Assembly: GCF_003977755.1 (NCBI RefSeq)
Contig: NZ_RQWN01000007.1
Location: 62,001 to 126,000 of the forward strand
Origin: Haloterrigena salifodinae
GTDB taxonomy: Archaea > Halobacteriota > Halobacteria > Halobacteriales > Natrialbaceae
Direction of reading: 5' to 3'
DNA length: 64,000 nucleotides
Part shown: piece after piece, positions 9,740-63,402 of the stretch
How the letters are laid out: each line of letters starts with the position of its first letter
How positions within the stretch are numbered: position 1 is the first letter of the stretch
Translations under genes and position numbers: made by a program
Notes under the pieces: generated by a model
Seen by the model: the letters and a program-made list of their open reading frames with translations, nothing else
Database searches by the model: none
Told to the model about the DNA's origin: nothing

Positions 9740-10978
9740 ATGACGCTCTTCGAGCGGTCCGAAGCTATTTTCGAGGATGAAAACGTCTTGCACGACGATT
9801 ATCAGCCCGAATCGCTCGAGGAACGCGACGACGAAATCGAGCAATACACCGCGTACCTACAGCCTGTCATCAACGGTTCACAGCCTCGAAATATTTTCCT
9901 CTACGGGAAGACTGGTGTCGGCAAGACAGCGGCGACGAAATATCTTCTTCACCATCTCGAGGAGGACGCAAAACAGTACGATGACCTCTCAGTCACCACT
10001 GTCTATCTCAACTGCGAGGATCTGACTAGTAGCTATCGCGTGGCCGTTGCACTCGTCAATACCTTACGGGATCCGTCTGATCAAATCAGTCGAACTGGGT
10101 ATCCGTTGAACGCGGTCTACGAAAAGCTGTGGACGGAACTCGACCGAATCGGTGGGACGATTTTGATCGTTTTAGACGAAGTCGATTACATTGGCGACGA
10201 CGATTCGATCCTCTATCAACTTCCGCGTGCTCGCAGTAACGAGAAAATAGAACGCGCTCGAATCGGGATTATCGGGATCAGCAACGATTTCAAATATCGA
10301 GAGAAACTCGATCCGCGCGTCGAAGACACGCTGTGTGAACGCGAACTACACTTCCCGCCATATGACGCGAACGAACTCCAGAACATTCTCGAACGACGTG
10401 CAACGTTAGCGTTCAAAGACGGCATTCTCGAGGAAGATGTTGTTCCGTTGTGTGCAGCGTTTGCCGCGCAAGATAAGGGAAGTGCCCGTCAAGGACTTGA
10501 CCTCCTTCTCGAGGCGGGTGATCTAGCCCGTCGACGAAACGATTCTATCGTTACAGAAGATCACGTTCGCGAGGCGAAACAGTTGCTGGAAAAGCAGCGG
10601 ATCGAAGAGAGCATGAAAGAGTTGACCTCTCACGGACATCTCACACTCTTGGCTGTAGTCGCATCGACGATTGCGGAACCGTCTGAAGTGCCATTTCAAA
10701 AGCAACGACTTTACGAACAGTATACCGATCTCGCGGTCGCGACCGACCGTGATCCTCTCGGCGGCAGGGCGTTTCACAATCACTTAGCCGAACTCTCGAT
10801 GCTCGGGATTCTCGATCGAACGAAGCGTAACGAAGGCAGGAGTGGTGGGATATACTACGAATATCAGGTCGATGTTTCGATCGATGGTGCGCTTTCGACA
10901 CTGGACAATTTGCATTTGAGCGGTAGTCTGAACCTCGACTCACTCTGGGAAACCGCGGAGGAGCAGGGGCTCGTGTAA
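9740..10978 (+). CDS. orc1: Orc1/Cdc6-family origin-binding protein (module A)
   Basis: The 412-residue replication initiator combines origin binding and helicase loading. Residues 50-240 form an AAA+ ATPase: Walker A YGKTGVGKTAATK (about 54-66), Walker B LIVLDEVDYIGDDD (about 140-152), sensor region IGISNDF (about 175). The lid follows, then a C-terminal winged helix (about 300-400: ELTSHGHLTLL, LSMLGILDRTKRNEG). The length is typical. Its closest relative in the window is the orc gene at 60169 (same N-terminal DDYQP motif and long identical blocks). Origin-box-like repeats lie upstream, and one lies 32 bases past the stop. Low GC compared with its neighbours. Confidence 0.93.
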   Translation: MTLFERSEAIFEDENVLHDDYQPESLEERDDEIEQYTAYLQPVINGSQPRNIFLYGKTGVGKTAATKYLLHHLEEDAKQYDDLSVTTVYLNCEDLTSSYRVAVALVNTLRDPSDQISRTGYPLNAVYEKLWTELDRIGGTILIVLDEVDYIGDDDSILYQLPRARSNEKIERARIGIIGISNDFKYREKLDPRVEDTLCERELHFPPYDANELQNILERRATLAFKDGILEEDVVPLCAAFAAQDKGSARQGLDLLLEAGDLARRRNDSIVTEDHVREAKQLLEKQRIEESMKELTSHGHLTLLAVVASTIAEPSEVPFQKQRLYEQYTDLAVATDRDPLGGRAFHNHLAELSMLGILDRTKRNEGRSGGIYYEYQVDVSIDGALSTLDNLHLSGSLNLDSLWETAEEQGLV

Positions 10979-33696: not shown

Positions 33697-34962
33697 CTAC
33701 TGGCGATTTTCTATGACGGCTTCGACCGTCGAGTCTAGTCTCGAGTCTCCACTCAGTTTCTCGATCACGATATCGATATCAACAGCTAGTTGATATTTAT
33801 TTGTCATTCCGCGACCACGACCGCGCCCTGTTCGAGATCCATCGATGATGTTCCCATGAGCTAAATCATTGAGTTTCTCTCGGAACGTTCCCCGCTGATA
33901 CACCTCGATACCAGCGTGTCTTCCGAGTCGCTTGTATCGTTTGTACAGGTCTGTCGTCGATTCTGGCGATGCGTCTGCTAACTCGGCTTCTAGAACAGTT
34001 AAGAGTGCAACCTTCCGCTGTGTCGTTTCTCCACTGATCGCCTTCCCTACGGTTTCTTCTTGGATCTCCTTCTGTGCTTTTCGGACGTGCTTCTCCTCGA
34101 CGGTCGTTACCCCTTCGTCAAGCGCGAGGTCACAGGCTGTCGACAAAAGCCTAATTGCCTGCCTCGCGTCGCCCGTATCTCGCCCTGAAATTGCAGCGCA
34201 GAGCGGAATTACGTCCGATGCGAGAACGTCGCTCTCCAAGTAAGCGTACTCTTCTTTCCCATCTTCGAAATATGTGTTCTGAAGCCCTCGAACTGAGCGT
34301 CGAGCGAGAATATCTCGCAACTGATTTGCATCGTACGGACTGAAAACTACTTCGCGACTACCAAGCGAGGATCGGACATCAGAATCGAGATTTTCGTGAA
34401 ATTGATAATCATTGGTAATACCGATTACGCCAAGCGAAACACCTTCGACTGTCGCCCGAGGTAACTCGTAGAGAACGTAATTGTCTTCTTCGATCCCGTC
34501 AATTTCGTCGAGCACGATCACTACAATTCCACCAATCTCCTCCAGAATTTCCTTCAGACGATCGAATAACTCCGTTTTGGTGTTTCCTCTCGGTTTATCT
34601 ACGCTCCGATCGAGTCGCGTCTCTTCGGCTGCTTTTACGAGGTTGGAGAGAACGTTCCACGACTTTCGTGCGCCCTTGCAACTGATTCTCAATACGGTAA
34701 GATCGGTATCAGCGGTACCGTCGGCCCAGTTGACCAATTGCTGCGTCTTGAGATTTACAGCAACGGTTTTCCCTTGACCAGTTGGCCCGTATACTAAGAT
34801 ATTCCGTGGTGAGCCACCGAGGGTAATCGGTCGGAGCGCCGAATGAATCGTCGAGAGTTCCGTTTCCCGTTCGGGAAGTTTATTTGGTCGATACAGATCC
34901 GGTTCTGGATCCAGTACGTCGATGTTTTCGTAGATCGCCTGCCCTTCTCCGAACGACTCCAT
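33697..34962 (-). CDS. orc1: Orc1/Cdc6-family origin-binding protein (module B)
   Basis: A 421-residue initiator: AAA+ domain with Walker A YGPTGQGKTVAVN (about 62-74), Walker B GIVVIVLDEIDGIEEDN (about 140-156), sensor IGITNDYQF (about 178), lid, and a C-terminal winged helix (about 300-400: KVALLTVLEAELADASPESTT, LNDLAHGNIIDGSRTGRGRGRGMTNKY). The start at MESFGEGQAIYEN is supported by a TATA box 27 bases upstream; a longer frame adds 58 residues read from the origin repeats and is rejected. It is clearly distinct from the module A and C proteins. Low GC. Confidence 0.92.
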   Translation of the reverse strand: MESFGEGQAIYENIDVLDPEPDLYRPNKLPERETELSTIHSALRPITLGGSPRNILVYGPTGQGKTVAVNLKTQQLVNWADGTADTDLTVLRISCKGARKSWNVLSNLVKAAEETRLDRSVDKPRGNTKTELFDRLKEILEEIGGIVVIVLDEIDGIEEDNYVLYELPRATVEGVSLGVIGITNDYQFHENLDSDVRSSLGSREVVFSPYDANQLRDILARRSVRGLQNTYFEDGKEEYAYLESDVLASDVIPLCAAISGRDTGDARQAIRLLSTACDLALDEGVTTVEEKHVRKAQKEIQEETVGKAISGETTQRKVALLTVLEAELADASPESTTDLYKRYKRLGRHAGIEVYQRGTFREKLNDLAHGNIIDGSRTGRGRGRGMTNKYQLAVDIDIVIEKLSGDSRLDSTVEAVIENRQ

Positions 34963-58040: not shown

Positions 58041-59111
58041 CTACTCGAGATCGGCGCCGACCGCCGCTTCGATCGACGAGAAGCCGTCGCGCTCGAGCAG
58101 TTCGACCAGCCCCTGGTTGATCCGCTCGGCTGTCGACGGTCCCTGGTAGACAAACCCCGTATAGAGTTGCACGAGCGACGCGCCCGCGCGAATCTTCTCG
58201 TAGGCGCTCGCGGCCGAATCGACGCCGCCGACGCCGACGATCGGCAGTTCGCCGTCCGTGTGCTCGGCGATCGTTCGGATCACGTCGGTGGACCTGTCTT
58301 CGATGGGGGCGCCGCTGAGGCCGCCCCACTCCTCGCGGGCGGGCGACTCGAGTCCTTCGCGGGTCGTCGAGGTGTTAGTTGCGACGATCCCGTCCAGACC
58401 GAACTCTTGAACGATGTCGACGAGATCCAGAATCGCGTCCTCGGGCTCGTCAGGACCGATCTTTACCAGCATCGGCACGTTCTCGTCGTTTTCGGCCTCG
58501 AGGGTTTCGAAGATCGCCCGCAGGTGCTCGGGCGAGGCCTCGTCGAACTCGTCGGGCGTGTTCGGACAGGAGACGTTAACGACGACGTAGTCGGCGAAGG
58601 GCGAGAGTCGATCGAAGACGCGTCGGTAGTCCTCGATCGCCTCCCGTTCGGTCGAGGAGTTCATCTTCCCGATGTTGACTCCCAGTGGGAAACCGGGCGT
58701 GCCGTCTTCCTCGAGTCGCTCCTTGACGGCCTCCATTCCCTGCCCGTTGAATCCCATCCGGTTGACCATCCCCTCGTCCTCCCGCAGGCGGAACAGCCGG
58801 GGTCGGTCGTTGCCGTCCTGCGGGTAGGGCGTGACGGTGCCGATTTCGACGAACCCGAAGCCGAGCGCCTCGAGGGCGTGGGTCACCTCGGCGTTCTTGT
58901 CGAAGCCGGCCGCGATCCCCACCGGGTTCGGAAACGTCGAGTCGAACAGGTCGACCTCGAGCGCGGGATGATCGTACTGGTAGGCCGCGGCGAGGGCCCG
59001 CCGCGTCGGCCACGTGGACTGGGCCGCCCGGAGCGTTCGCTTGCCGAGATCGTGGGCAGTCTCGGCCGGCAGTTTGAACGCGAGGGGGCGAACCCGCGAG
59101 TACAGCGTCAT
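58041..59111 (-). CDS. pyrD: Dihydroorotate dehydrogenase (class 2-like)
   Basis: A 356-residue FMN enzyme that oxidises dihydroorotate, probably at the membrane using quinone. The N-terminal helical extension (YSRVRPLAFKLPAETAHDLGKRTL) and NPVGIAAGFDKNAEV are class 2 traits. PYPQDGNDRPRLFRL and MVNRMGFNGQG follow. The catalytic-base motif reads NVSCPNTP, with Cys where E. coli class 2 has Ser and as class 1 enzymes have. GLSGAPIEDRSTD and the Gly-rich phosphate loop GVGGVDSA finish the barrel. It is convergent with the small acidic gene. Confidence 0.95.
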   Translation of the reverse strand: MTLYSRVRPLAFKLPAETAHDLGKRTLRAAQSTWPTRRALAAAYQYDHPALEVDLFDSTFPNPVGIAAGFDKNAEVTHALEALGFGFVEIGTVTPYPQDGNDRPRLFRLREDEGMVNRMGFNGQGMEAVKERLEEDGTPGFPLGVNIGKMNSSTEREAIEDYRRVFDRLSPFADYVVVNVSCPNTPDEFDEASPEHLRAIFETLEAENDENVPMLVKIGPDEPEDAILDLVDIVQEFGLDGIVATNTSTTREGLESPAREEWGGLSGAPIEDRSTDVIRTIAEHTDGELPIVGVGGVDSAASAYEKIRAGASLVQLYTGFVYQGPSTAERINQGLVELLERDGFSSIEAAVGADLE

Positions 59112-59195
59112 TTGCCGACAGTCGGGACGGCCGGTAGGTAAACGTCTCGAAGACGAGAGCCGGACACCTCGATTTCGACCACGGGCTTGGTGACT

Positions 59196-59355
59196 CGGTC
59201 AGTACGTCTCGAGCAGCCCCACGACCGCGCCGCCGCCGATTCTCATCACCCCAAGGCGCCGATCGGGTGGCCGAACGCGACCGCATCCCCTTGTGGATTC
59301 GTCTTCTCGCGAGGATTCGAACCGACCGTTACGTAGACCACCCGTGCGGTCGTTG
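59196..59355 (-). pseudogene. Decayed copy of the thiolase 3' end
   Basis: DNA at 59196-59252 matches 61517-61575 (stop codon and last 19 codons of the thiolase, encoding GGGAVVGLLETY in place of GGGAIMGLLETY). After an internal deletion of about 70 bases, 59254-59347 matches 61645-61738. The direction is the same as the intact gene. Substitutions and lost codons show that it is non-functional. Confidence 0.85.
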
Positions 59356-59555
59356 CGCTCGAGGGGAACCTCGAGTCCAGACACCGTTGGGTGGGTATCG
59401 ATTAGTCAATATTCATCCCGTCTTTCCGCTCCGTGATCGGTGCCATCAACCGGCCGATCGGTGATCCATTGCTCGAATTTGTACGTGGACGCGTACTTGA
59501 ACTCGTTCACGATTAGCACGACTCTGGATGTGGAACGATGTCGATTTCTTCAAAG

Positions 59556-59577
59556 AGAACAGCGGACACGGTGGTGT
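59556..59577 (+). repeat. Origin-box-like repeat C1
   Basis: AGAA followed by CAGCGGACACGGTGGTGT, the consensus. Confidence 0.85.
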
Positions 59578-59590
59578 AATCGAGACAGTC

Positions 59591-59612
59591 ACACCACTAT
59601 GTCCGCAGTTCT
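59591..59612 (-). repeat. Origin-box-like repeat C2 (inverted)
   Basis: Reverse complement AGAA plus CTGCGGACATAGTGGTGT, three changes from consensus. Confidence 0.8.
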
Positions 59613-59630
59613 GGACCCGAAAACGAATGC

Positions 59631-59652
59631 AGAACAGCGGACACGGTGGTGT
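59631..59652 (+). repeat. Origin-box-like repeat C3
   Basis: Identical to C1 over 22 bases. Confidence 0.85.
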
Positions 59653-59788
59653 GGGATCAATCGTTCACTACTCTGTTCGTAGAAGTAGGAGTAAATGAGT
59701 AGCATGTCGGCTGGTACGTTACGAAATTCTCAAATCACTCTATCTGGAGTGGCAGCAGCGCTGTTGTTGTATATGAATCGGCACACCC

Positions 59789-59810
59789 ACACCACCGTGT
59801 CCGCTGTTCT
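59789..59810 (-). repeat. Origin-box-like repeat C4 (inverted)
   Basis: Perfect inverted copy of C1 and C3. Confidence 0.85.
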
Positions 59811-60049
59811 TGATTTCTTGACGGGCCATTGATTCCTCTCGCACTGTAAGCGAGACTCACTGCCGTTTCAACGATTCTTATCTAAGAGAACACGGATCGA
59901 CCGTCTTCAGCTAATTAAATACCCATTTATATATTTGAATGAAGCCGTACAAAATGTACACTAAGGGGCTGAGACATAGATTTAATACTGGTGACCCAAA
60001 CGCTTATCAACTAGATGGGGAATGGCCTATCTCGTTCTTCGTCGACGTT

Positions 60050-60068
60050 TCTGCGGACATGGTGGTGT
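60050..60068 (+). repeat. Origin-box-like repeat C5
   Basis: CTGCGGACATGGTGGTGT, located after the AT-rich segment. Confidence 0.75.
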
Positions 60069-60098
60069 GGGTGTGCTGTCTATAATTTATAAGCAGAT

Positions 60099-60127
60099 AG
60101 AACAGCGGACACTCCGGACACGATGGT
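60099..60127 (+). repeat. Degenerate origin-box-like repeat C6
   Basis: AGAACAGCGGACACTCC followed by GGACACGATGGT, as if two partial boxes were merged. It ends at the presumed TATA box of orc. Confidence 0.6.
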
Positions 60128-60135
60128 TTTATAAA
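60127..60135 (+). promoter_or_regulatory. TATA-like element of orc (module C)
   Basis: TTTTATAAA ends 34 bases before the ATG. A short leader with GAGGA just before the start may exist. It abuts box C6, so the initiator could repress its own gene. Confidence 0.5.
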
Positions 60136-60168
60136 TTCTATGTAGGAAATATACTTTAGGTAAGAGGA

Positions 60169-61395
60169 ATGTTTGAACGGGACACTGATATCTACAAGAA
60201 CCGCGATGCTTTGCGGGAGGATTATCAGCCAGATGAACTCGTGGGACGTGATGAGGAAATCCAGAAGTATCGGGCAGCACTTCAGCCAGTGATCAACGGT
60301 GAACAACCAAATAATATCTTTTTGTATGGGAAAACGGGTGTCGGGAAGACTGCAGCGACCCGGTATCTTCTCTCTCACCTTGAGGAAGATGCGTCCCAGT
60401 ACGACGATCTCGATCTTCACCTCTCATTTCTCAACTGTGATGGGCTTACGTCATCATACCAAGTCGCGACCCGTTTAGTCAACGAATTTCGAGATGAGAG
60501 GGAACAAATCAGCTCGACAGGCTATCCGCGAGCTACCGTCTACGAAATGCTGTGGAAAGAACTCGACGAAATCGGCGGAACTAATCTGATCGTTCTCGAC
60601 GAAGTCGACCACGTCGAAGACGATTCCATCCTCTATCAGCTCCCCCGTGCTCGAGCAAACAGTAACATCTCTGAAGCGAACATTGGGATAATCGGTATCT
60701 CGAACGATTTCTCGTTTCGTGACGATCTTTCGCCGAAAGTCAAAAGTTCGCTCTGTGAGCAAGAGATACATTTCCCTGCTTACGATGCTGGTGATCTTCA
60801 GAAGATTCTCGAACGACGTGGACAGGTGGCATTTCGCGATGGTGTTCTCAACAATGCAGTTGTTCGTCTCTGTGCTGCCTACGGAGCGAAAGATGCCGGT
60901 GATGCACGCCAATCGATTGATCTTCTGATGAAAGCCGGCGATCTCGCTCGAGAAGAAGGGGCGGAGACCATTCGGGAGAGTCACGTCGAAACCGGCCGTC
61001 ACGACCTCGAACGGGGACGAATTGAAGAGGGAATTAGAGGACTGACCCAACACGGGCATCTAGTACTGTACTCCTTGCTCACGATACATTTGCAGGACGA
61101 AACACCGGTTCGATCACGGGATATCCGACCTCGCTATACGAATTTCGCTCAGCGAGCCGGTCGGGATCCACTCGTGCCGCGACGAATGCGCGATCATCTC
61201 TCTGAACTGGCCATGCTCGGACTCGTCTCTGTAACCGAACGGAATGAAGGTCGACGCGGTGGGACGTATCGCGAATATACGCTTTCTATGAACGTTGATC
61301 TCATCCTTTCTGCCTTAGATGAAGTTGTTGACGAGGTCGGCATCCACGAATCGATTCATGCTCTCGTAACCGATGATATTTCTCAGGACTCATAA
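60169..61395 (+). CDS. orc1: Orc1/Cdc6-family origin-binding protein (module C)
   Basis: A 408-residue initiator and paralogue of the module A protein. AAA+ domain with Walker A YGKTGVGKTAATR (about 54-66), Walker B LIVLDEVDHVEDD (about 140-152), sensor IGISNDFSF (about 175). The C-terminal winged helix (about 290-390: GLTQHGHLVLYSLLTIHLQDETPVRSRDIRPRYTNFAQRAGRDPLVPRRMRDHLSELAMLGLVSVTERNEGRRG) differs most from module A. This agrees with its different repeat sequence. Low GC. It ends 9 bases before box C7. Confidence 0.93.
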   Translation: MFERDTDIYKNRDALREDYQPDELVGRDEEIQKYRAALQPVINGEQPNNIFLYGKTGVGKTAATRYLLSHLEEDASQYDDLDLHLSFLNCDGLTSSYQVATRLVNEFRDEREQISSTGYPRATVYEMLWKELDEIGGTNLIVLDEVDHVEDDSILYQLPRARANSNISEANIGIIGISNDFSFRDDLSPKVKSSLCEQEIHFPAYDAGDLQKILERRGQVAFRDGVLNNAVVRLCAAYGAKDAGDARQSIDLLMKAGDLAREEGAETIRESHVETGRHDLERGRIEEGIRGLTQHGHLVLYSLLTIHLQDETPVRSRDIRPRYTNFAQRAGRDPLVPRRMRDHLSELAMLGLVSVTERNEGRRGGTYREYTLSMNVDLILSALDEVVDEVGIHESIHALVTDDISQDS

Positions 61396-61404
61396 TATCC
61401 TGTA

Positions 61405-61426
61405 ACACCACTATGTCCGCAGTAAC
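61405..61426 (-). repeat. Origin-box-like repeat C7 (inverted, downstream of orc)
   Basis: Reverse complement ACTGCGGACATAGTGGTGT; close to C2. It lies 9 bases after the orc stop, as A5 does in module A. Confidence 0.8.
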
Positions 61427-61519
61427 CTCGTCGGATACGGTCTGTCTCGCGGCATTTCTCTTTCCAGATATGGGACCTATCCAGTAGTGACTCGAGACCT
61501 CAAGCGGAGATCGATCCGG

Positions 61520-62707
61520 TCAGTACGTCTCGAGCAGCCCCATGATCGCGCCGCCGCCACCGATGCTCATCCCGACGAAGCCGCGTTCGACGTCGGGATC
61601 GTCGCGGAGCTGGTAGGCGAGGCTGGTCGCGAGCATTCCGCCGGAGGCGCCGATCGGGTGGCCGAACGCGACCGCGCCCCCCTGAGGGTTCATCCGCTCG
61701 CGCGGAATCCCGATGCGGTCCATGACGTACGCCGCCTGCGCGGCGAAGGCCTCGTTGATCCAGTAGGCGTCGACATCGTCGACCGCGAGTTCGTTGCGCT
61801 CGAGGAGTCGCTCGACGACGTCGCCGACGGCCTCGTTGAACCGGTCGGGATCGCGGTAGGCGGTGGCGTAGTCGACGAGCCGAGCCATCGGCTCGAGGCC
61901 CCGCTGGTCGGCGGTCTCCTCGTCGGCCAGCAGCACCGCCCCCGCGCCGTCGCTGAGTTTGGATGCGTTGCCCGGCGTGATGGTGCCGTCCTCACGAAAC
62001 GACGTCGGTAGCCGGGCCAGGTCCTCGAGCGTAGAGTCGGGTCGCGGTCCCTCGTCGGTGTCGACCGTGCCTCCGCTGGTTTCGACGGGCACGACCTCGT
62101 CGTCGAACGCGCCCGAATCGATCGCGTCGGCGGCCCACCGGTGGCTCTCGAGGGCGTACTCGTCCTGGGCTTCTCTCGAGATCCCTTCGCGGTCGACCAG
62201 CCCCTCCGTGATCTCGCCCATGTGGACGTCCAGGTTGACGTCCCAGAGCGAGTCGAGGAGCATCGAGTCCTTGATCTCGACGTCGCCGTGGCGGCGCCCT
62301 TTCCGGTAGTCGGGGAGGATCCACGGCGCGTTCGTCATCGACTCGAACCCGCCCGCGATCGCCAGGCCGGCGCGGCCGGCCGCGATCCGATCGGCCGCGA
62401 GCCCGATCGCGCTCATCCCGGAGCCCGAGGCTTCGTTAATCGTCGTCGCCCGCGTCTCGTTGGGAAGTTCTGACTCGACGACGACCTGCCGTCCCGGAAC
62501 CTGTCCGATGCCGGCCTGGATGGCGTTTCCGAGTCCGACCCAGTCGATAGCGGCGCTGTCGACGTCGACGCGCTCGAGGAGGCCGTCGACGGCCGTCCGA
62601 CCGAGTTCGACCGCCTCGACGTCCGCGAGCGATCCGAGTAGCGTTCCGTGGGGCGTTCGCGCGCCGTCGATGAGGACGATGTCGGGCGCGCTGTCAGCGC
62701 CGGTCAT
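61520..62707 (-). CDS. Thiolase family protein with Ser in both catalytic Cys positions
   Basis: A 395-residue acyl-CoA thiolase homologue. The overall order is standard: DGARTPHGTLLG at the start, the nucleophile region, INEAFAAQ (Asn, about 311), GGAVAFGHPIGASGG (His, about 343) and a glycine-rich end. But the nucleophile motif reads NEASGSGMSAI (Ser instead of Cys) and the end reads GMSIGGGG (Ser instead of Cys). From memory, haloarchaeal beta-ketothiolases with a Ser nucleophile have been described and need a small OB-fold partner; none is adjacent. The ATG at 62707 is chosen over one 16 codons earlier. Its 3' end is partly duplicated at 59196. Confidence 0.85.
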   Translation of the reverse strand: MTGADSAPDIVLIDGARTPHGTLLGSLADVEAVELGRTAVDGLLERVDVDSAAIDWVGLGNAIQAGIGQVPGRQVVVESELPNETRATTINEASGSGMSAIGLAADRIAAGRAGLAIAGGFESMTNAPWILPDYRKGRRHGDVEIKDSMLLDSLWDVNLDVHMGEITEGLVDREGISREAQDEYALESHRWAADAIDSGAFDDEVVPVETSGGTVDTDEGPRPDSTLEDLARLPTSFREDGTITPGNASKLSDGAGAVLLADEETADQRGLEPMARLVDYATAYRDPDRFNEAVGDVVERLLERNELAVDDVDAYWINEAFAAQAAYVMDRIGIPRERMNPQGGAVAFGHPIGASGGMLATSLAYQLRDDPDVERGFVGMSIGGGGAIMGLLETY

Positions 62708-62963: not shown

Positions 62964-63128
62964 ATGAGCGTACTAGACGAACTATTCGACCGCATTGGCG
63001 GCTTTCGCGAGACCGGCGAGCGAACGACCGTTCACTACGAATGTCGCCGCTGCGGACTCACGCTCTCGAAGGACGACGCATGCTGTTCGTCCTGTGGCTC
63101 CGAGGAAATCGCGGCCATCCTTCTCTAA
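62964..63128 (+). CDS. Small zinc-ribbon protein (54 residues)
   Basis: Reads MSVLDELFDRIGGFRETGER..., then YECRRCGLTLSKDDACCSSCGSEEIAAILL. A zinc ribbon has C-x2-C and C-x2-C (a third Cys precedes the second pair). A short amphipathic N-terminal helix and the same layout as the protein at 39616 make them paralogues. An AT-rich stretch upstream (62870-62930) can serve as promoter. It is convergent with a truncated MaoC gene. Confidence 0.78.
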   Translation: MSVLDELFDRIGGFRETGERTTVHYECRRCGLTLSKDDACCSSCGSEEIAAILL

Positions 63129-63159: not shown

Positions 63160-63402
63160 TCACATCGCGGCAGCTGACGCCGACGCGTAGGCCTCGTTGA
63201 AGTGCATCGGGTTGCGGTTCATCGTGACGTTGGTCATCCAGACGTTGTCCGTCTCGGTGACGGTCCGGCCGAACGGATGCTTGCAGATATCGCCGACTGC
63301 GAAATCCTCGTAGTAGCGACCGTGCCAGCCCGAAACGAGTCGCTTCTCGGCCGATTCGTCGCCGCTCCGTGCGCTGTCGGTATCGTCCAGTGAGTCAGCC
63401 AT
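63160..63402 (-). pseudogene. Truncated MaoC-family dehydratase
   Basis: 80 codons: an acidic N-terminus, then HGRYYEDFAVGDICKHPFGRTVTETDNVWMTNVTMNRNPMHFNEAYA. This is the beginning of a MaoC-like (R)-hydratase including the region with the catalytic His (NPMHFNEAYA). It then breaks off into ASASAAAM and a stop, while family members go on for another 80 or more residues. The lost part is not found in any frame nearby, so the gene is a remnant. Confidence 0.8.

Follow-up and report, generated by a model that had tools for sequence, protein, structure and literature searches.

How did a replication origin come to lie between a broken and an intact copy of the same thiolase gene? The question is raised by a locus in a 64,000-nucleotide stretch of Haloterrigena DNA (contig NZ_RQWN01000007.1, positions 62,001 to 126,000; hereafter the window), in which orcC, encoding an Orc1/Cdc6 initiator, and its origin recognition boxes (ORBs) separate an intact thiolase gene (thi1) from the remains of another (thi2) beside pyrD. 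A first-pass annotation of the window read the two copies as the scar of an orc-bearing element inserted at the end of the thiolase gene. We find that the locus is better explained, with a probability of roughly 0.6, as a plasmid-type origin of the oriP/Cdc6K family situated between the thiolase and maoC genes of an old pyrD-thiolase-maoC cluster; thi2 would be the resident thiolase that was cut off, thi1 would belong to a second, tandem unit, and recombination would have joined the two. We refer to the genome of the window as G000, to the contig that holds it as C7, and to the genomes of relatives by other G-numbers.

The broken copy is made up of two pieces, both in direct orientation relative to thi1. 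Positions 59196-59247 align with 61517-61571 (49 of 55 aligned positions match) and positions 59254-59318 with 61645-61709 (55 of 65), and between them 73 nucleotides of the thiolase are deleted (thiolase nucleotides 1063-1136), close to the internal deletion of about 70 that had been annotated. At the protein level the frame is kept, with weak (52%) similarity on to about 59380. Chance similarity is ruled out, as the best local score is 80, whereas 500 dinucleotide shuffles reached at most 35 and 200 real 1.2-kb pieces of the window at most 43. Genome-wide, the thiolase 3' end matches only these two copies at the locus, so that the left copy cannot be part of some other intact thiolase gene. 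The orcC gene and six perfect ORB cores (59562-61420) do lie between the two copies, as annotated.

Relatives retain much more of the broken gene. Relics beside pyrD, all scoring above shuffles, comprise thiolase nucleotides 25-138 and about 881-937 in G003, 23-63 and 1107-1202 in G002, and 27-73 in G025 (Natronolimnohabitans innermongolicus JCM 12255), and a start codon can still be recognised in the relics of G002 and G025. The 3' end and spacer of the G002 relic are nearest to the pyrD-adjacent thiolase of G004, and the 5' pieces of G002 and G003 are nearest to G001; both G001 and G004 are module-free. Thus, since the relics of relatives reach the 5' end of the gene, lie beside pyrD and keep the native spacer, the broken copy is a resident, once whole thiolase, and the view that it is a duplicate produced by insertion at a gene's 3' end is not supported, given relics that keep the start codon and the 5' end.

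The far side of the module carries a second clue. In G002 and G003, which have an initiator gene orcD at this site, a 3' fragment of maoC (maoC2) lies between thi1 and orcD (86/105 in G003 and 84/107 in G002), and a further maoC lies beyond sZn, complete in G003. In G025, the order is pyrD, thi2 relic, orcC, decayed maoC, ligase and fdx, with no second thiolase or unit. The presence of a maoC fragment beyond the module in all three genomes indicates that the module sits between the thiolase and the maoC of one unit. In the simplest reading of these maps, the intact thiolase would be part of a second, tandem, module-free thiolase-sZn-maoC unit in Haloterrigena. The maoC1 of this second unit, reduced in the window to a fragment, is full length in G003; the unit is still decaying. 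The ORB region of G025 (L082 10377-11600) has an imperfect tandem duplication (67% repeats of ∼500 nucleotides) and about a dozen ORBs.

The uninterrupted pyrD-thiolase junction that the first-pass annotation proposed to look for exists. It is found in 22 related genomes, with a gap of 55-420 nucleotides and in several cases on contigs of at least 4 Mb; the old order is therefore pyrD-thiolase-fdx. In extended clusters, sZn, maoC and a CoA-ligase gene intervene between thiolase and fdx. About 1 kb upstream of the G001 thiolase (L067 4100-5150) had no counterpart in 60 relatives, so that G001 may be either an empty site from the start or the product of a secondary loss. These empty sites, like the relic and maoC pieces in relatives and the anatomy and family of the module, can be read from the DNA itself.

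The module has the parts of a complete origin. OrcC scores 440.9 bits against the TIGR02928 profile (cut-off 181.3) and is 73.8% identical to the product of the orc gene at NC_015944 7-1206 on pHH400 of Haloarcula hispanica, which we take as Cdc6K, as only one Cdc6 is listed for that plasmid by Wu et al. (PMC3528665). The ORB core GCGGACAYRGTGGTGT, of which the window has no perfect copy outside the module, recurs with 0-2 mismatches around the pHH400 orc gene and other family members. Inverted ORBs (59781-59804 and 60053-60076), 96% complementary to each other, flank a stretch of 42% GC (59805-60052). A box with TTTATAAA precedes orcC. Its position is conserved in several relatives with origins of this family, and it may serve as an auto-regulated orcC promoter. 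The initiator is thus closest to Cdc6K, family-specific ORBs are linked to it, and an AT-rich element lies between inverted ORBs; by anatomy and family, the module would be a complete plasmid-type (oriP/Cdc6K-type) replication origin, with predicted origin activity. The coordinates are collected in Table 1.

Table 1. Features of the pyrD-thiolase locus, in window coordinates
Feature	Position	Strand	Remark
pyrD	58041..59111	-	quinone-dependent dihydroorotate dehydrogenase
native thiolase-pyrD spacer	59112..59195		homologous to uninterrupted G001 spacer, 83-88% over ∼137 nucleotides including gene end
thi2 relic, thiolase 3' end	59196..59247	-	thiolase nucleotides 1136-1191, including stop codon
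thi2 relic, internal piece	59254..59318	-	thiolase nucleotides 998-1063; weak protein-level similarity on to ∼59380
ORB core GCGGACAYRGTGGTGT	59562..59577	+	perfect
ORB core	59591..59606	-	perfect
ORB core	59637..59652	+	perfect
ORB core	59789..59804	-	perfect; left arm of inverted ORB pair
AT-rich stretch	59805..60052		42% GC, replicon mean 63.6%; probable unwinding element between inverted ORBs
ORB core	60053..60068	+	perfect; right arm of inverted pair
degenerate ORB-like box and TTTATAAA	60114..60136	+	just 5' of orcC
orcC	60169..61395	+	Orc1/Cdc6 initiator, Cdc6K/oriP family, 408 amino acids, intact
ORB core	61405..61420	-	perfect; downstream of orcC
probable deletion junction	61421..61519		intact thiolase 3' flank joined to orcC end; site of the maoC 3' fragment and orcD in G002 and G003
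thi1	61520..62707	-	intact thiolase, acetyl-CoA C-acyltransferase family
sZn	62964..63128	+	54-amino-acid four-cysteine (zinc-ribbon-like) protein, second unit
maoC1 fragment	63193..63399	-	MaoC-like dehydratase, residues 10-76 only; full length in G003

The orcC initiator and its ORB family occur mostly on haloarchaeal plasmids. The oriP-cdc6K origin of the H. hispanica megaplasmid pHH400 confers autonomous replication (PMC3528665), and its deletion was not possible (PMC3936714). The same module is found on the Haloterrigena salifodinae plasmid pHTS171, and the family has been proven experimentally on pHH400 (PMC3936714). No plasmid record other than this homologous replicon covered at least 80% of the module region. 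The orcC of pHTS171 (L064 6001-7224) has an in-frame stop at codon 248 (CAA to TAA); it has no coding-sequence annotation in the PLSDB table.

Which kind of replicon hosts the module? C7 measures 178,847 bp, and a 92-bp overlap of its ends closes it to a circle of 178,755 bp. Its module region is 98.1% identical to that of pHTS171, which has the same thiolase relic and arrangement, and C7 is the homologue of this plasmid. In other members of the genus, the pyrD cluster lies on contigs of 162-212 kb. The pyrD gene is the only full-length dihydroorotate dehydrogenase gene in the whole G000 genome, and pHTS171 also encodes glmS, glmU, glnA, ribonucleotide reductase beta, shikimate kinase, chorismate mutase, TFB and SSB; with this gene set in its homologue, C7 looks like a chromid. 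A further initiator gene, orcA (C7:57880-59058, 2.9 kb left of the window), is present in all six members of the genus (6/6), each time on the corresponding contig, is 36-38% identical to orcC, and is probably the core origin of the replicon. In total, C7 has four full-length orc genes, the other two lying in the window at 9746-10912 and 33754-34935 (57% and 34% identical to orcC). Since the host is a circular replicon with its own genus-wide orc gene, the module is an extra origin on a chromid-like replicon and not a chromosome-integrated one. Thus, the earlier suggestion that the origin arrived from elsewhere, for example as an integrated plasmid, holds insofar as the module is of plasmid type and was not always there, but not as integration into a chromosome. 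GC and AT skew over the 178,755-bp replicon gave no clear signal for an active origin, and the curves do not single out the orcC module.

In the reading we prefer, that of a plasmid-type origin within the thiolase-maoC interval, the module would have separated the resident pyrD-adjacent thiolase from its upstream partner, and thi2 would then have decayed by deletions. Module-bearing and module-free versions of the cluster would, most likely, have been joined by recombination between related replicons, and the window would later have lost its maoC2 fragment by a deletion that probably took orcD, the alternative initiator, as well. OrcC would be expected to bind the ORBs, open the AT-rich stretch and start replication as a secondary origin. 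We infer this order of events, the recombination step and the origin activity. The divergence of the two thiolase copies does not date the event, as had been hoped: the last 55 nucleotides of the pHTS171 relic (L064 5031-5085) are 100% identical to the intact thiolase, compared to 89% in the window, while the modules are 98-99% identical overall. The relic 3' end in pHTS171 looks like a short gene-conversion tract, and dating by copy divergence is rejected for this reason.

Several observations weigh against this reading. On the pyrD tree the carriers do not form a monophyletic group, and the module-free G001 nests among them; extra losses or allele exchange are therefore needed. The thiolase bodies of G001 and G004 follow the species tree with no clean split into thi1 and thi2, which implies gene conversion. 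The join of the thi1 3' flank to maoC2 has no obvious homology that would explain a crossover. The idea that orcC and orcD once formed a single ancestral convergent module is weakened, since a convergent orcD-like neighbour is found at only 4 of 48 orcC loci, all of them in Natrinema. Finally, no trace of maoC2 was found in the window. Nor was there a trace of orcD in the window above noise, except orcC itself, and with both missing the module there seems to lie exactly between two thiolase ends.

That position and the orientation of the repeats, taken in the window alone, are what suggested that the broken duplicate was made by the insertion of an orc element at the 3' end of the thiolase, or by its recombination into that end, and empty sites do exist. 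We consider this very improbable. If the relics of G002, G003 and G025 share ancestry with that of the window, they contradict it, since 5' and middle parts of the thiolase persist in these three relatives; in them, too, the far side of the module holds a maoC fragment. Moreover, an element that inserts at a gene end would rebuild the 3' end of its target and leave behind a short, almost exact repeat rather than a complete second gene. No integrase gene was found between 59112 and 61519, where orcC is the sole credible gene, and there is no tRNA gene at the locus to provide an attachment (att) site; the repeats, 85-89% identical, have an internal deletion and reach the 5' end of the gene in relatives. 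An integrase/att-site model is therefore rejected, with neither integrase nor tRNA and with repeats that are not short exact ends. A Campbell-type single crossover, in which a circular orc plasmid with its own thiolase recombined with the resident thiolase and later lost most plasmid genes, would account for direct repeats that flank the origin of a plasmid family. It also fits an intact copy whose upstream region is common with module-free G004, beside a relic that has the native 3' spacer and a 5' end unlike that of the intact copy. Against it, the maoC fragment follows the 3' end of the intact copy although maoC is normally upstream, so that thiolase and maoC would have had to stand in an odd order on the plasmid; the locus retains no plasmid backbone genes; and the module of G025 comes without a second thiolase. 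We regard such a crossover as unlikely. It is similarly doubtful that the thiolase-sZn-maoC unit was duplicated in tandem first and the module then inserted into the pyrD-proximal copy. Such a sequence of events yields the same final map, and neither copy looks foreign to the genus in its gene body, but in G025 the module occupies that interval of an unduplicated unit, with ligase and fdx directly beyond maoC, and the relic and intact 5' ends differ.

Independent of its history, the module might be dead, a remnant that plays no part in replication. The stop codon in the H. salifodinae orcC and a frameshift in the orcD of G003 are consistent with this, as are the three other orc genes on the replicon and skew curves that do not single the module out; the window, though, has an intact orcC, six perfect ORBs and the AT-rich stretch. 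Loss of function is thus possible, but we think it the less probable state of the module.

The site also holds different initiators in different lineages. Where G000 and H. salifodinae carry orcC, G002 and G003 carry orcD, whose product is 28% identical to OrcC, and the ORB regions of orcC and orcD carriers are about 70% alike. In genomes G140 and G134 of another genus (g5), an orcA-like gene (45% identical to orcA) lies upstream of the thiolase, in the thiolase-maoC interval (L093 3210-4400 and L095 3909-5102). We tentatively suggest that the thiolase-upstream interval beside pyrD, a gene of de novo pyrimidine biosynthesis, may repeatedly have served origins of haloarchaeal chromid-like replicons as a docking site. 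Initiators unrelated to each other (orcC or orcD in Haloterrigena, orcC in Natronolimnohabitans, orcA-like in g5) might be swapped or erased there by recombination between module-bearing and module-free cluster versions, with the metabolic genes serving as homology arms.

Origin families with linked ORBs, the association of later-acquired origins with mobile elements, and the addition, loss or disruption of origins in variable regions have already been described (PMC3528665, PMC4441112), and three origin-associated cdc6 genes are listed for Haloterrigena turkmenica pHTUR04 by Wu et al. (PMC3528665). The module resembles the oriP-cdc6K of pHH400 not only in its initiator but also in its ORB core, present in several inverted and direct copies upstream and downstream of the gene. 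It differs in that pHH400 has oriP as its one, essential origin, whereas the module shares its replicon with at least three other orc genes, varies within the genus and has a pseudogene copy in H. salifodinae. Strain-specific gain, loss and disruption between conserved flanks are likewise seen at Haloarcula variable-region origins such as oriC3-cdc6D (Wu et al. 2014, PMC4441112), but those are flanked by transposases, whereas here the flanks are duplicated, decayed metabolic genes and different initiators occupy one megaplasmid site. Similarly, recombination between sod1 and sod2 and between ISH18 copies in Haloferax volcanii (PMC6063281) shows duplicated sequences rearranging origin-bearing replicons; there the exchange is recent and the repeats near-identical, while here they are old, broken and now short.

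The locus is thus a further, unusually well-resolved case of known haloarchaeal origin gain and loss, and no new mechanism is demonstrated. It also cautions that an origin lying between broken and intact copies of a gene is not by itself evidence of insertion at that gene. Origin gain and loss are usually blurred, but here the empty sites, decayed residents, carriers and reciprocal initiator loss can be aligned nucleotide by nucleotide, and the locus offers a concrete route by which a plasmid-type origin joins a chromid-like molecule.

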